64,000 nt of DNA, from positions 62,001 to 126,000 of the forward strand of contig NW_024068188.1 of the NCBI RefSeq assembly GCF_009389715.1, written 5' to 3'. The DNA comes from Phoenix dactylifera. Its lineage: Eukaryota; Streptophyta; Magnoliopsida; Arecales; Arecaceae. Positions 17,723 through 64,000 of this stretch are shown piece after piece. Below the pieces are notes generated by a model. That model searched no databases and was not told the origin of the DNA. It worked only from the letters and a program-made list of their open reading frames with translations. The position numbers were made by a program, and so were the translations under genes. Each line of letters begins with the position of its first letter. Position 1 is the first letter of the stretch.

Positions 17723-18838
17723 TAAATGTATATGTATATGTATATATTCATTTTGAATATTGTTTTACTAATAGAGGAGAGGATGAAATTGTGGGAATGG
17801 GGGAGTTTAGGATTCGATTAAGAGGGAGAATGTGGTGACTGGATTCGAATGTTGAAATCTTATTTATAACAAACAAATTGGGAATGCAATATTCCAGTTT
17901 TGCCCATGAAAACAATCTGTGGTAACATATTAACTCATTATATTGCCCTCAAATGTCAGGCCTAAAGACCTAGTGCTTATTTGTTTATATTTGTAATGGT
18001 AGGTGTTATGTGACATTGTAAAATGCTAGACATGTATAATCTGATATCTCAGAGGTGTTGGAAATGAACTTGTACCCTGCATTGGTGCAACAGACTTTCT
18101 AAGAAGTCCATATGTCCTTTCCACACTAGGGACACTAGGCTTTGAATACCACTGATGTTCTTTCTACTGCCACTTGAACAATAAATTTTTGATTAAATTA
18201 GTAGTTTCCTAATCTTTTAAATTCCACTTCATTAACAATTTTTTGTTAAATATGAAAACCTGCTAAACATTGAATCCTCTTATCTTTAAGTTTATGTGAT
18301 CACCTTTTACTCCACTTTCAGACTACAACAGAGTGATGAAACACCAATGGTATGGGAAATGCTGCTTTACATTTATGTCCTTTACTCACCAGATTGGCAC
18401 TATAGGAGTACGATGCCTACTTTCTTGTTTCTCTATGGTGCTGCCTTTGCCATGGTCCATTCACTGGTGCGTTTTCAAATAGGATTCAAGGTGCATTACT
18501 TTGTATTGTGTCTTCTCTGCATTCCTCGGATGTACAAGTATTACATCCAAACTAAAGAGACAGCAGCTAAGCGGCTCGCCAAACTCTATGTGGCAACAAT
18601 ACTTTTGGGGACTCTATGCTGGTTGTTTGATCGCATCTTCTGTAAGAAACTCTCTCATTGGTATATAAACCCACAGGGTCATGCCTGGTGGCATGTGCTT
18701 ATGGGATTCAACTCATACTTTGCAAACACATTTCTCATGTTTTGCCGTGCTCAGCAACTAGGATGGCAACCCCAGGTCGCCCACCTATTTGGTTTCTTTC
18801 CTTATGTGAAGATTCAAAAACCAAAGAAACAGGAGTGA
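15432..18838 (+). CDS. Alkaline (phyto)ceramidase
   Basis: Integral membrane hydrolase of the ACER/alkaline ceramidase family, which splits ceramide or phytoceramide into a sphingoid base and a fatty acid in the ER/Golgi membrane. Two coding exons, 15432-15688 and 18322-18838, joined in phase (GT|A gives Val86), encode 257 aa, a normal length for plant members. The N-terminal segment ELCEENYTHSSYIAE (residues 18-32) matches the calcium-binding stretch. The zinc/catalytic set is present: Ser76 and His80 in GSMIFHAT, Asp91 in QSDETPM, His206 and His210 in GHAWWH. Several hydrophobic helices follow, and the tail is lysine-rich (QKPKKQE). A leader exon probably starts at 15333 after TTTTCTGCAG. 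It holds two short upstream ORFs, at 15354 (Met-Ile-stop) and 15395 (ATGTGA). The 2.6-kb intron contains duplications and a microsatellite. Family assignment is secure; substrate preference is not visible. Confidence 0.93.
16130..16255. repeat. Short direct duplication
   Basis: A block of about 55 bp running from GTGTTTTGAATCTAATG to ATAATCTTAAGGA is repeated directly, with a spacer of about 25 bp, inside the ceramidase intron. Confidence 0.8.
16779..17408. repeat. Tandem duplication, about 310 bp x 2
   Basis: Two adjacent direct copies (about 16779-17089 and 17090-17408) each run from CATGTTTAAGTTTTATAAAT to GGCTAGCAGTCAT. Most bases agree by eye, with small indels and one insertion of about 16 bp in the second copy. 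It lies in the ceramidase intron with no coding content. Confidence 0.88.
17656..17719. repeat. (TA)n(TG)n compound microsatellite
   Basis: About 12 TA units run directly into about 20 TG units, inside the ceramidase intron. Confidence 0.95.
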
Positions 18839-25145: not shown

Positions 25146-25679
25146 TCAGAAGGGCCAGGCACCCCTCAATTTGATTCGAAAAGGAGAAGAAGACGCAGCT
25201 CCGTCGTTGGCCGTGACGCAATCGAGGCCGCAGCCGCACTGGGGGCACTCGAAGAAGTTGTCGATGGGGAAGTCAGCGGAGGCGATGCCGACGGAGAACT
25301 CAAGCTCGTCGTTGTGGAGGGAGACCTCGATGATGTTGATCCAGAAGAGAAGGATCTTGACGCTGACGCCGCGGAGGTCGGAGAGGCGGCCGGCGGAGAT
25401 GTGGCCGGAGATGGTGGGCTGGTAGCGGAGCTGGTAGGAGCCCTCCAGGGAGAAGCTGCAGGTGTTGTTGAAGTAGGCCGAGAAGTCGCCGGTGTCCGGG
25501 TCGAGGTCGTAGCCGGAGCAGCCCTTGGGGAGGAGCCCGATGGGAAAGTTATACGACTCCAGCACCTCGTAGGCGCTCGGCTTCGTGTCATCGGAGGTGG
25601 AGGAGGTTACCGCGGAGGAGGAGGAGGCGAGGGAGAGGGAGAGCAGGAGGAGGACGGAGAAGCGGAGGAGCGACCTCAT
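25146..25679 (-). CDS. DUF538 family secreted protein
   Basis: Single-exon gene of 177 aa on the minus strand. The Met at 25679 is preferred over one ten codons upstream (25709) because it places a classic signal peptide (MRSLLRFSVLLLLSLSLASS) at the N-terminus. The body is a DUF538 domain, seen in SAYEVLESYNFPIGLLPKG near the start and in the later Y.L.Y...I.G.I..G.L..L.GV.VK pattern, followed by F.VG.AS.DFP.. with a short Cys-rich stretch (ECPQCGCGLDCV). The domain is plant-specific and small; the biochemical role is not established. No intron is needed to complete it. The GC-rich coding strand also leaves long antisense frames open, which are shadows. Confidence 0.9.
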   Translation of the reverse strand: MRSLLRFSVLLLLSLSLASSSSAVTSSTSDDTKPSAYEVLESYNFPIGLLPKGCSGYDLDPDTGDFSAYFNNTCSFSLEGSYQLRYQPTISGHISAGRLSDLRGVSVKILLFWINIIEVSLHNDELEFSVGIASADFPIDNFFECPQCGCGLDCVTANDGAASSSPFRIKLRGAWPF

Positions 25680-25709
25680 GGTTTCTTGCCCGTCGCCGTA
25701 GGACATCAT

Positions 25710-31087: not shown

Positions 31088-40327
<9,240 letters not shown>

Positions 40328-48587: not shown

Positions 48588-48899
48588 TCTTTTTTGCATA
48601 TATACTTTTCTAAATATACAAAATTGCATGGATATTCTTGTAAAATTGTTATTTGCTTGTATACCTTTATAAATATTTCTATTTACATGTCTATCTATTA
48701 AGGGCATTTTAGTCATTTTAATTTGAAACCGATAATTTCTTAACGGCATCAACTGGTATGGGTACATATGCAAAAATAAAGATAAAAAATGATAGAATAG
48801 CAAAACAAGTATTTTACAAGGATATACATATAAATATCAATTTTGGAAGAATATTCATGCAAAATCCGATATTTAGAAAGATATTCATGTAAAAAATCT
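48588..48899. mobile_element. MITE of the 'GAATACCCT' TIR family, near SWEET copy B
   Basis: The right arm, inverted, reads ACATGAATATCTTTCTAAA..GGATTTTGCATGAATATTC and is close to the left arm of the element at 34503. The left arm TTTTTTGCATATATACTTTT is its diverged inverse. The 310-bp unit lies 130 bp beyond the stop codon of SWEET copy B, so it may overlap that gene's 3' UTR or polyadenylation site. Confidence 0.65.
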
Positions 48900-60405: not shown

Positions 60406-61569
60406 GGTTCTACCCCATCGAACATTCTCCAGCGAGAAGATATATATTTAAACTTAGTCTGATATAACTCATTGGACATCATTTTATATATATATAAAAA
60501 TTTATGTTTAAATTTAGCCTAGTCTATAACCCAACTCATCGAACATGAATATTATGTACCCAATCGTGCCCAATCGTTCAAACAAATTTTTTTTAATTGA
60601 TTTAGTTTTGATTTTAAAAATCCGATTTAAATGGGTTCGGTTCAAAATAATCCTAACATGATTATCATCCGATCTATGCATGCCTCTAATTACTGCAAAA
60701 ACAATATCATCTTGAATAAAACTAGCACGACAGAAATCATCACTAGGCGCTCAAATCAGCCTCATTGACTGATAACTAGAGAAAAAGAGATGGTGGGCTG
60801 TCTGTTTCCAAGATGAACATCTTGGACTCGCCAAGTTGGGAGCTAATAATTACATACAAGAAGAAGGAGGCGAGGCGTAAAAAAGATAGGTTAATATTGA
60901 AACTCCATGAAAATTTTTCTCTAGTGCTCATTTTAAGATGGCAAAGTTGGCTACACCCGGAAGAGGGCATTTAAAGAGCTTTGAGCAAAGCAATCTCTTC
61001 TATGACAATATCATTGATCATTCAAAAGATCTAAATAAATTATAAATAAGCTGTGCTACCTGATACAAATTTCGAACATGAAAAATCACATATTGATCCA
61101 TGCCCTCACGTGTAATTTTTTGTATGATATTTTCAACTTACTTTAATGTTCATTGTTGATGTCATATTCTTGCCGATTATATTGTTTCCACTATCTTCTT
61201 TTGCTCTTTAAGAGTCGTATTCTACTAATTTTTTTATAGTATTTTTTGGAGCAAGAACTTTTGCAATTATTAAGTATATTGCTTGATCTTTGATTTTAAG
61301 ATTATAATATTTAACTTACTTTGGTTCTGCCGCTGCCCTTCTTGGAAACGCTATTTTTGGCGTCTGTTGCGTACGTAATTTATGTATAAAATATATCCTG
61401 GATGGCGCAAGACAATGACTTTGGAGCCACCAGATTCTAGCTTATTGTGAGGCAGGTAAAACTTCACTACCTTCGCACCTGGCGATTTTTATTATTTAAA
61501 ATACATATACATAGGATCAGTTTTAAAATTTATATTTGAGAAAATAAAATCACAAAAACTAAGATGGGA
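60406..61569. other. Intergenic, nothing recognised
   Basis: AT-rich sequence without gene, RNA or transposon signals that I can support. Confidence 0.45.
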
Positions 61570-61985
61570 ACATGTTTGGTATTATTATTTTTATATTTTA
61601 TTTTCAAAAATTATTTTTATCATTTATAAAAATATAAAAAAAGAAATTTTTTTATTTTTATTATTTTTATATAGTCGTCTGCACCATTACTATTTCTATC
61701 ACTGCTATAGTTGTCTTTCCGCACCACCATTATCGCAGTCATCTTCATCACGACTGCTGCAGCCATTACTGCTACCACTATCATTACTACATCATCGTTG
61801 CCCCTTAGATCACTATAGCCTCTATTGCTTTCACAACTATTGTCATAATTTTGTTCACCACCAACATATTTATATATTTTTTTAATAATTATTTTAAAAT
61901 TTTATGATTTGAAAATAAAATAAAAAAATATTTTATTTTTGAAATAAAAGAATAAAAATACAAATAAGAATAATGCGATATGGAC
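61570..61985. mobile_element. MITE with degenerate trinucleotide core
   Basis: The left arm GTTTGGTATTATTATTTTTA and the right arm ..AATAAAAATACAAATAAG are roughly inverted and AT-rich. The centre (61680-61860) is an imperfect ACC/ATT/GCT trinucleotide tract that is far more GC-rich. The ends are not sharp. Confidence 0.45.
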
Positions 61986-62325
61986 ACCATAGTCCATACA
62001 TCTTAATTTTAAATATTTTTAGTCAATATCGATAACAATAACCGTGATAAAAAAAATATTTATGATATGAGATGTTAATAAATTAGAATCTCACATATGT
62101 GCAACACACTAAAAGCTACAAGACGAGGCCCATAAAATATACTTGATGATGGGAAATTGGAAAAAAAAAATGCAAAAAGTCGAGCTATATGAGAACAGCA
62201 TGCATATAATCAATTCAAGATGAAATGCCAAGAGTTAAGAGAAAAAATGTTTTTTAAGAGAAAGTGAAGCCAAACTTGGATAGAGTTGCTGCCCATTCTT
62301 ATTATAATATAATATTATTATTTTT

Positions 62326-62530
62326 AGGGTTTTTTGCATGGATATCCTTCTAAATATCAGATTTTGCATGAATACCCTTTCAAAATTGATATTTGCATAT
62401 ATACCCTTATAAAACTTTGTTATTATACAAATACCCTTAATATAACGGTTGTTCTAACGGTGTTAAAAAAAATCATATTTATATTAATTAAAAATAAAAT
62501 TAAAATTTGAAATTATATTATTATCCTTAC
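62326..62530 (+). repeat. Left 205-bp terminal inverted repeat
   Basis: It runs from AGGGTTTTTTGCATGGATAT to ATTATTATCCTTAC and pairs with the reverse complement of 63795-63999. The inner 30 bp are the least conserved. It contains AATATAACGGTTGTTCTAAC, which is identical in both copies. Confidence 0.88.
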
Positions 62531-62961
62531 TCTTTTTTTCTCCCTGCTTCACATTCCTCGCAGGAAAAAATGGCTTTGTGTCGCACTTGGTTATCGATTC
62601 CCTGCGCACCTCGCAGCCCTCCCGCTCCCTACAAAAACCCTCCCACGCCCCCACCCTTCACCCTCACTTCCTCTGGCCTCTCCCACCCCCACATCAAGTC
62701 ACTCTTTTCTTCTCTCTCCGCACACAGCACACGACAGAAAAGAGAAGAAAAGCTATATTGTTCTTCCAATCGCGTGATCCCACATAGCAACCTATCTAAA
62801 CCTTTTTAGCACCTAGAGAATCTCATCTGCTGCGTACCCTCTGCCTGCTTCTAATCCAAATGGCCGTTCCTCATTCACCCCCATACGTTTCCTCGATCGC
62901 CCTTTTAACACGAATTCCCAGGAGATAATCGTTTCAGCCGTTTCGGAATCGAACACAACGA

Positions 62962-63637
62962 ATGGCCTCCTCCGATACCGAAACCAGCTGCAGGAACTCA
63001 ATGCCATGCTCATGGTCGTCCAATTCCTCGCCGTCACCGTCTCCGAAGAAGAGAGGTTTGACGGGCGGCGGGGGGAAGCAGGCGCGGGACGGGAGCAAGC
63101 ACCCGGTGTACCGCAGCGTGCGGAAGCGGGCATGGGGGAAGGGGGTGTCGGAGATCCGGGAGCCCCGTAAGAAGTCGCGCATCTGACTCGGGACCTTTCC
63201 GGCGCCGGAGATGGCTGCGCGGGCCCACGACGTGGCGGCGCTTAGCGTGAAGGGCGCCGCTGCCGTCCTCAACTTCCCCGACCTCGCCGCCTCCCTCCCC
63301 TGCCCCGCCACCCTCTCCCCTCGCGACGTACAGGCCGCCGCCGCCCGCGCCGCCGCCATGGACCTGCCCTCCGCCACCCACCCCACCCATCCTGACGAGT
63401 CCTCCGACGACCTGGGGGAGATCGTGGAGCTGCCGCGACTCGGGGAGGACCTCTTTGACTCAGCCAAGTCGCTGCGATTTCGTGCTCCACGACTTGCCGG
63501 ACCCGTGGGCGTACTCGCCGCCGTGGATGGCGGGTGCCGACGAGTACGACCTCTTCTCCGACCACGCGTGGATGGCGGGTGGACCGCCGGAGGAAAATTT
63601 TCCCACCGGCCTCGAAGCTCTCTTGTGCGACCACTAA
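62962..63637 (+). pseudogene. DREB (A-4 type) AP2/ERF transcription factor pseudogene
   Basis: Host-type gene, intronless, inside the TIR element. It opens with [16 protein letters not shown] and a Ser-rich stretch, then an AP2 domain: [20 protein letters not shown], then EPRKKSRI, a stop, and [19 protein letters not shown]. The usual A-4 DREB sequence is [42 protein letters not shown]. The conserved Trp of IWLGTF is TGA (63184-63186); the Trp of GKWVSE is Gly, the Gly of YRGVR is Ser and the Met of VRMRAW is Lys. Reading continues in frame to LGEDLFDSA, then a frameshift near 63460-63475, after which the acidic tail [18 protein letters not shown] goes on to a stop at 63635-63637. As it stands only 74 aa without a full DNA-binding domain could be made. 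Confidence 0.88.
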
Positions 63638-63794
63638 GAACCCAGAAAATGTTTTCTTCTCTTCTTCTCTGTTCCCATTCACTTAATTTCTACTTAACTA
63701 TGTGGGTTTGCTTACGAGACCATTAGCCCTAATTCAATTGTGCGGTGTTCGTTTTTAAAGGGCAAGAGAGGGGAGGAGAGAAGAAGAAGAAAGG

Positions 63795-63999
63795 GTAAGG
63801 ATAATAACGTCATTTTAAATTTTAATTTTATTTTTAATTAATATAAATATAATTTTTTTAACACCGTTAGAACAACCGTTATATTAGGGATATTTGTACA
63901 ATAACAGAGTTTTATAAGGGTATACATGCAAATATCAATTTTAGAAGGGTATTCACGCAAAATCTGATATTTAGAAGGGTATTCATGCAAAAAAACCCT
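63795..63999 (-). repeat. Right 205-bp terminal inverted repeat
   Basis: Inverted partner of 62326-62530. Two near-identical direct modules of GAAGGGTATTCAYGCAAAA sit at its outer end (about 63943-63960 and 63974-63990), so the terminus is itself built of short tandem units. Confidence 0.88.
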
Positions 64000-64000
64000 T

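Follow-up and report, generated by a model that had tools for sequence, protein, structure and literature searches.

The right-hand end of the window, the 64,000-nucleotide stretch analysed here (C541:62001-126000 within a 773-Mb genome), carries an intronless AP2/DREB coding region between two long inverted repeats. This raises the question of whether a mobile element has carried a host regulator to this site, and if so, what kind of element, from which gene, and in what state. Our analysis leads us to conclude, with high confidence, that 62327-63998 is a non-autonomous Mutator-like transposon (a Pack-MULE) whose interior is an almost complete host DREB-type AP2/ERF gene.

We first consider the limits of the element. 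Ungapped repeat finding gave an inverted arm of 181 nt at 85% identity, and a gapped alignment of the two ends covered 212 columns, of which 193 match and one is a gap (~91%); among the 18 mismatches, 16 are transitions. This similarity is far above chance and the inverted repeats are real. The element extends over 62327-63998 (1672 bp) and has GGG...CCC at its tips. The first-pass annotation was correct in calling the repeats, although the ends it gave, 62326 and 63999, were one base too wide on each side, both bases belonging to the duplication. A comparison of the flanking bases, which it had proposed, revealed that a perfect 9-bp target-site duplication, TTATTTTTA, flanks the element at 62318-62326 and 63999-64007, with 7 bases of the right copy lying outside the window. 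The chance of such a 9/9 match is ~2e-5 when matched for composition. The divergence between the two repeats (K 0.093) is inflated by C-to-T decay and need not date the insertion. The features of the ends are as follows.

62318..62326, no strand: left copy of the 9-bp target-site duplication, TTATTTTTA, repeated exactly after 63998
62327..62538, plus strand: 5' terminal inverted repeat (212-column alignment with the other end)
Near the tip of the 5' repeat 62327..62538, plus strand: TTGCATGnATACCC-like motif, four units at ~30-bp spacing (from the motif positions)
63787..63998, minus strand: 3' terminal inverted repeat (repeat finding and gapped alignment)
63999..64000, no strand: right duplication TTATTTTTA, its first two bases; the whole copy reaches 64007 (C541:125999-126007)

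A genome search with the repeat alone (62326-62530) returned at least 43 matches; the count is a lower bound, since 40 of the 2677 first-look candidates were scored. Twenty repeat-bearing regions were fetched from the genome for comparison of their ends. The GGG left tip was present in 15 of the 19 fetched loci having the left-hand outer end (it was absent from L013, L020, L021 and L024), so that the search, which had been suggested as a check, yielded many copies with a common tip. We evaluated the 9-bp duplication in 19 elements, namely 17 of the 20 fetched elements together with the cargo-bearing C6 and C33 elements; we set aside L014 and L016, which are nested or truncated, and also L021, which nearly duplicates L020 and shares its flanks. 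Unshifted duplications of at least 8/9 were observed in 13/19 own pairs against 5/342 swapped pairs, and when a shift of up to 3 bases was allowed, in 16/19 elements against 35/342 swapped pairs. Three elements fell short, namely L018 (7/9), L026 (5/9) and the copy at C33, whose 7/9 match lies in a T-rich tract. The 9-bp duplications and the long ends therefore place the element among the Mutator-like elements, and the superfamily, which had been left open earlier, is Mutator.

No autonomous partner was seen among 30 MULE-transposase loci (of 150 PF10551 matches listed), none of which had the repeat within its ~1.5-kb flanks. More than 100 of the 150 listed PF10551 matches score 95.7-100.8 bits, many of them in a 394-aa open frame, and this high-scoring group is perhaps a recently amplified transposase family. 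The window also holds a degraded 452-bp relative of the repeat family with both ends (34501-34952; 75-87% identical over the matched parts) and a second degraded short relative (48624-48896), and elsewhere in the genome L012 and L013 are 454-bp elements related to the repeat. The interiors of L010, L011, L014, L017, L020, L021, L025, L027 and L028 contain common modules in varied order and orientation, which suggests frequent internal rearrangement within the family. In the other fetched elements the longest frames mostly resemble low-complexity GC-rich sequence. No earlier description of the repeat family was found in the open-licence literature, searched mostly at listing level.

We further examined what lies between the repeats and whether it could still be a working gene. 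Homology to the genes at C11 and/or C4 (described below) spans from ~62541 to ~63786, beginning ~420 bp upstream of the start codon and reaching the inner edge of both repeats; over 62605-63706 the cargo is 92% identical to C11. The features of the interior, all on the plus strand, are as follows.

62541..63786, plus strand: stretch captured from the host gene, with its leader, its coding region and its trailer; from C11/C4 homology, outer few bases uncertain
62962..63637, plus strand: DREB-type AP2/ERF coding remnant (pseudogene), whose C11 counterpart encodes 226 aa
63142..63144, plus strand: W61G, the Trp of WGKW changed to Gly at codon 61 of the copy (frame comparison)
63184..63186, plus strand: in-frame TGA at codon 75 of the copy, in the AP2 domain, where C11 and C4 have TGG (Trp)
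63470..63471, plus strand: net 5-base loss in comparison with C11, shifting the C-terminal frame

The W61G change and the stop at codon 75 are both substitutions and both lie inside the AP2 domain. The best AP2 piece of the window copy scored 14.1 bits, below the Pfam cut-off of 33.3. This weak AP2 piece was the sole match when nine frames of the element were scanned with Pfam, and no transposase family was found; six of these nine frames, those scanned besides the AP2 pieces, matched no Pfam family at all. Judged from its sequence, the window copy is dead and would be unable to make the factor. The first-pass annotation had proposed that the repeats enclose a DREB/ERF gene with its leader and nothing else, and this is borne out, as gene-homologous sequence fills nearly all of the space between them. 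Its reading of a Pack-type element that had taken up a nearly whole host regulator holds for the capture; the working regulator does not survive, since the stop and the frameshift make the copy a pseudogene. A DREB gene model placed at 62327-63998 would thus be an annotation of a transposon-borne pseudogene.

The parent gene had also been left open, with the suggestion that an intact copy lacking the repeats would identify the donor. A search with the cargo (62540-63780; 39/39 candidates scored) gave 41 matches, and an intact, repeat-free gene of 226 aa was found in the same genome at C11:13.503 Mb (L060). Matches of 89-92% over 62605-63706 came from C11, C2324 and C544, each free of the repeat for 1.5 kb around. 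The last two represent the C11 locus again, at 98% (C2324) and 97% (C544) identity to it across 4.1 kb; both contain several frame-breaking indels, which could stem from errors of assembly or from damaged alleles. A further match, C4 (L067), is 81% identical to the cargo and likewise has no repeats within 1.5 kb. C11 and C4 both encode intact 226-aa proteins in single open frames, with the AP2 domain at 57 bits. DREB proteins are defined by one AP2 domain with V14/E19-type residues (WVSEIREP). The parent protein has these DREB-type residues and a Pfam AP2 score of 57.4 bits. The resemblance between C11 and C4 extends outside the captured stretch, and C11 and C4 are therefore the native genes, from which the transposon copies are derived.

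These comparisons place the source of the cargo in the lineage of the C11 gene, which is either the donor itself or the nearest relative of the donor still present. The mobile copies share with C4 a short 5' block that is absent from C11, and those that retain the 3' part also keep a longer 3' block common to C4 and absent from C11. As C11 lacks two blocks common to C4 and the mobile copies, the present C11 sequence cannot be the exact template. The simplest reading is that C11 lost both blocks after the capture; the alternative is that a now-absent donor allele served as the template.

Cargo matches of 90-92% that carry the repeats were found at C6, C33, C17 and C1611. The repeats were present at both ends of the C6 and C33 copies, and one end was seen at C17/C1611 in the stretch examined. 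C17 and C1611 represent a single site in two versions (97% identical along 2.8 kb), so that transposon-borne cargo is present at four sites (C541, C6, C33 and C17/C1611). In a tree of nine rows over 62605-63385, with a midpoint root on the C4 branch, the mobile copies formed one clade beside the C11 group (ultrafast bootstrap 96, SH-aLRT 95), and we therefore conclude that there was one capture, followed by spread to four sites. The left boundary between repeat and cargo recurs at C6, C33, C17 and C1611, and the right boundary at C6 and C33.

The copies differ in what they retain. In both C6 and C33 the 3' part of the coding region is affected by a shared, rearranged deletion that starts at ~63412, and C6 has in addition a 1-base loss upstream of the AP2 region. 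At C17/C1611 the cargo gives way to foreign sequence at ~63387. In L066/L065 (C17, C1611) the foreign sequence at the equivalent of ~63387 begins TGTAATATCCGGGCCC; it is possibly a retroelement end. The frames of C33 (158 aa) and C1611 (175 aa) are open through the AP2 domain, at 48.6 and 34.1 bits against the cut-off of 33.3, and at C17, the other version of the C1611 site, several indels are present and the frame is no longer than 96 aa. Contig versions of the same locus differ by frame-breaking indels (C11 versus C2324/C544, and C1611 versus C17), and single-base indels may therefore be assembly errors.

We evaluated whether the mobile copies are under selection, using a test in which changes of the same mutation types were placed at random, at sites where C11 and C4 agree. 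The mobile clade had 38 nonsynonymous and 22 synonymous changes, with 41.3 nonsynonymous expected without selection (P 0.21), and the AP2 region alone had 17 nonsynonymous changes versus 17.4 expected. For single groups over the coding part, P was 0.17 (C541), 0.07 (C6+C33), 0.23 (C1611) and 0.30 (C33); the C6+C33 group was borderline, with 18 nonsynonymous changes versus 22.2 expected (P 0.071). Selection was thus not detectable on the four mobile copies in the mutation-type-matched test, and functional retention of the cargo found no support in it (P 0.21). Pairwise dN/dS between mobile copies of different insertion sites was 0.35-0.92, from small counts; it was 1.01 for C17 versus C1611 (one insertion) and 0.36 for C11 versus C4 over the full coding region. 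Weak constraint on the mobile copies is possible, since the pairwise values are below 1 and the C6+C33 group is borderline.

Between 62605 and 63385 we also counted C-to-T changes (G-to-A included), taking the C/G positions that are the same in C11 and C4. Changes in any of C541, C6, C33 and C1611 were found at 29/128 CG, 12/66 CHG and 11/199 CHH sites, an excess at CG and CHG over CHH (Fisher P 4.8e-6). On the C11 branch the corresponding counts were 1/99, 0/56 and 5/183; as the two rows rest on different polarised site sets, and on four copies versus one branch, the contrast in level is indicative only, and the contrast between contexts is the stronger point. The C-to-T excess at CG and CHG suggests methylated, silenced DNA.

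These results bear on the possibility that the mobile copies act on their donor, either through hairpin small RNAs against the C11 gene or through an AP2-only competitor protein made from C33 or C1611. The inverted repeats could in principle form a hairpin, open frames with AP2 domains above the Pfam cut-off persist at C33 (158 aa) and C1611 (175 aa), and pairwise dN/dS below 1 leaves room for weak constraint. However, the deficit of nonsynonymous changes is not significant, the C17 version of the C1611 site is broken by several indels (96-aa frame), and the context-biased C-to-T decay suggests silencing. We consider such an action on the donor unlikely. As for C33 and C1611 in particular, which have lost the C-terminal part while keeping the AP2 frame open, it is very doubtful that they would tune the parental DREB gene by a competitor protein or small RNAs.

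We favor instead a simple history of capture, spread and decay. By gap repair or template switching, the gene would have been copied at the DNA level into the space between the repeats, probably those of an older member of this repeat family. Some MULE transposase would then have moved the cargo element to at least four sites, where the copies would have been silenced by methylation and would be decaying under little or no constraint. The absence of an intron from the cargo might be taken to indicate a processed mRNA retrocopy that landed inside a MULE; however, at C11 and C4 too the gene is one uninterrupted open frame, and the missing intron is therefore uninformative. The homology runs from ~420 bp upstream of the start codon out to both repeats, and reading the element and the alignment by eye revealed neither a poly-A tract nor a second duplication, which makes a retrocopy highly improbable.

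A version of the site lacking the element was also found, on C173. The left flank (61000-62326) is 99% identical to this contig as far as 62309, and the 501 bases examined there go on into the right flank with no interruption (97% identity in 395 columns). The cargo search (39/39 candidates scored) gave no match on C173. Missing from C173, in comparison with C541, are the element itself and 17 flanking bases to its left and right, both copies of the duplication included; the junction has a 6-base ATAATA overlap. One deletion of 1706 bases would account for this state, and original absence would additionally require a 25-base difference in the AT tract; we therefore lean towards a loss or imprecise excision on C173. 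It is plausible that C173 is the other allele, since the assembly is very probably that of a highly heterozygous palm made with FALCON-Unzip (PMC6794320), and it may also be a recent duplicate. The first-pass annotation had noted that the same inverted repeats placed at this locus in all related species would argue for a local duplication rather than a transposon, and here the same flanks are found without the element. A local inverted duplication, or two small MULE-type elements that had landed to the left and right of a DREB gene already in place, might be imagined from the small repeat relatives in the window (34501-34952, 48624-48896) and the 454-bp L012 and L013, but is hardly credible, as C173 joins the flanks with no gene between them, and the single 9-bp duplication spanning the whole unit, together with the repeat-cargo boundaries recurring at C6/C33/C17/C1611 on the left and C6/C33 on the right, is decisively against it.

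The element can be compared with known systems. Pack-MULEs prefer GC-rich cargo (PMC4858842, PMC3310237), and intact or partial gene fragments are mentioned in them (PMC4858842); models of capture by gap filling and fork switching have been set out (PMC8277862). The palm element is like the Pack-MULEs of rice, maize, tomato and Arabidopsis (PMC3310237, PMC4858842) in its long inverted ends, its 9-bp duplication, the lack of a recognised transposase, its GC-rich host-gene cargo, its several copies, and a parental gene elsewhere without the repeats. It differs in its host, a palm, and in the size of its cargo, a nearly complete gene of ~1.25 kb as against the 305 bp quoted for Pack-MULE captures in a source that also calls protein-coding Pack-MULEs rare (PMC8277862). 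PM-ZIBP of tomato (PMC3310237) is likewise a multicopy Pack-MULE of one captured gene, and its duplications are AT-rich and of 9-10 bp among the rows seen, a further likeness; however, it contains a gene fragment only, has tandem repeats at each end in 13/14 copies, and measures 0.9-1.4 kb among the rows seen, in comparison to 1.7 kb for the palm element. The Ssk-FB4 Pack-TIR of Drosophila (PMC8277862) is alike in having a nearly complete gene in an inverted-repeat transposon at several sites, but the transposon is FB4, and proteomic support and positive selection are described for it, while selection on the palm copies is undetectable. The palm element thus fits the known Pack-MULE kind, at its large, nearly complete end. 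Its particular value is that one genome shows the intact genes of parental type, the product of one capture event, its spread to four sites, a derivative with an internal deletion and a version of the site without the element, and also C-to-T decay that contrasts with the parent.

Two other open frames were observed in the window. The frame at 25146-25709 (minus strand, 187 aa) matches DUF538 (Pfam PF04398, 115 bits) and is likely a host gene. The frame at 18296-18838 (plus strand, 180 aa) matches Pfam Ceramidase (PF05875, 113.5 bits, profile positions 75-258) and probably represents the 3' portion of a ceramidase-type gene of the host.
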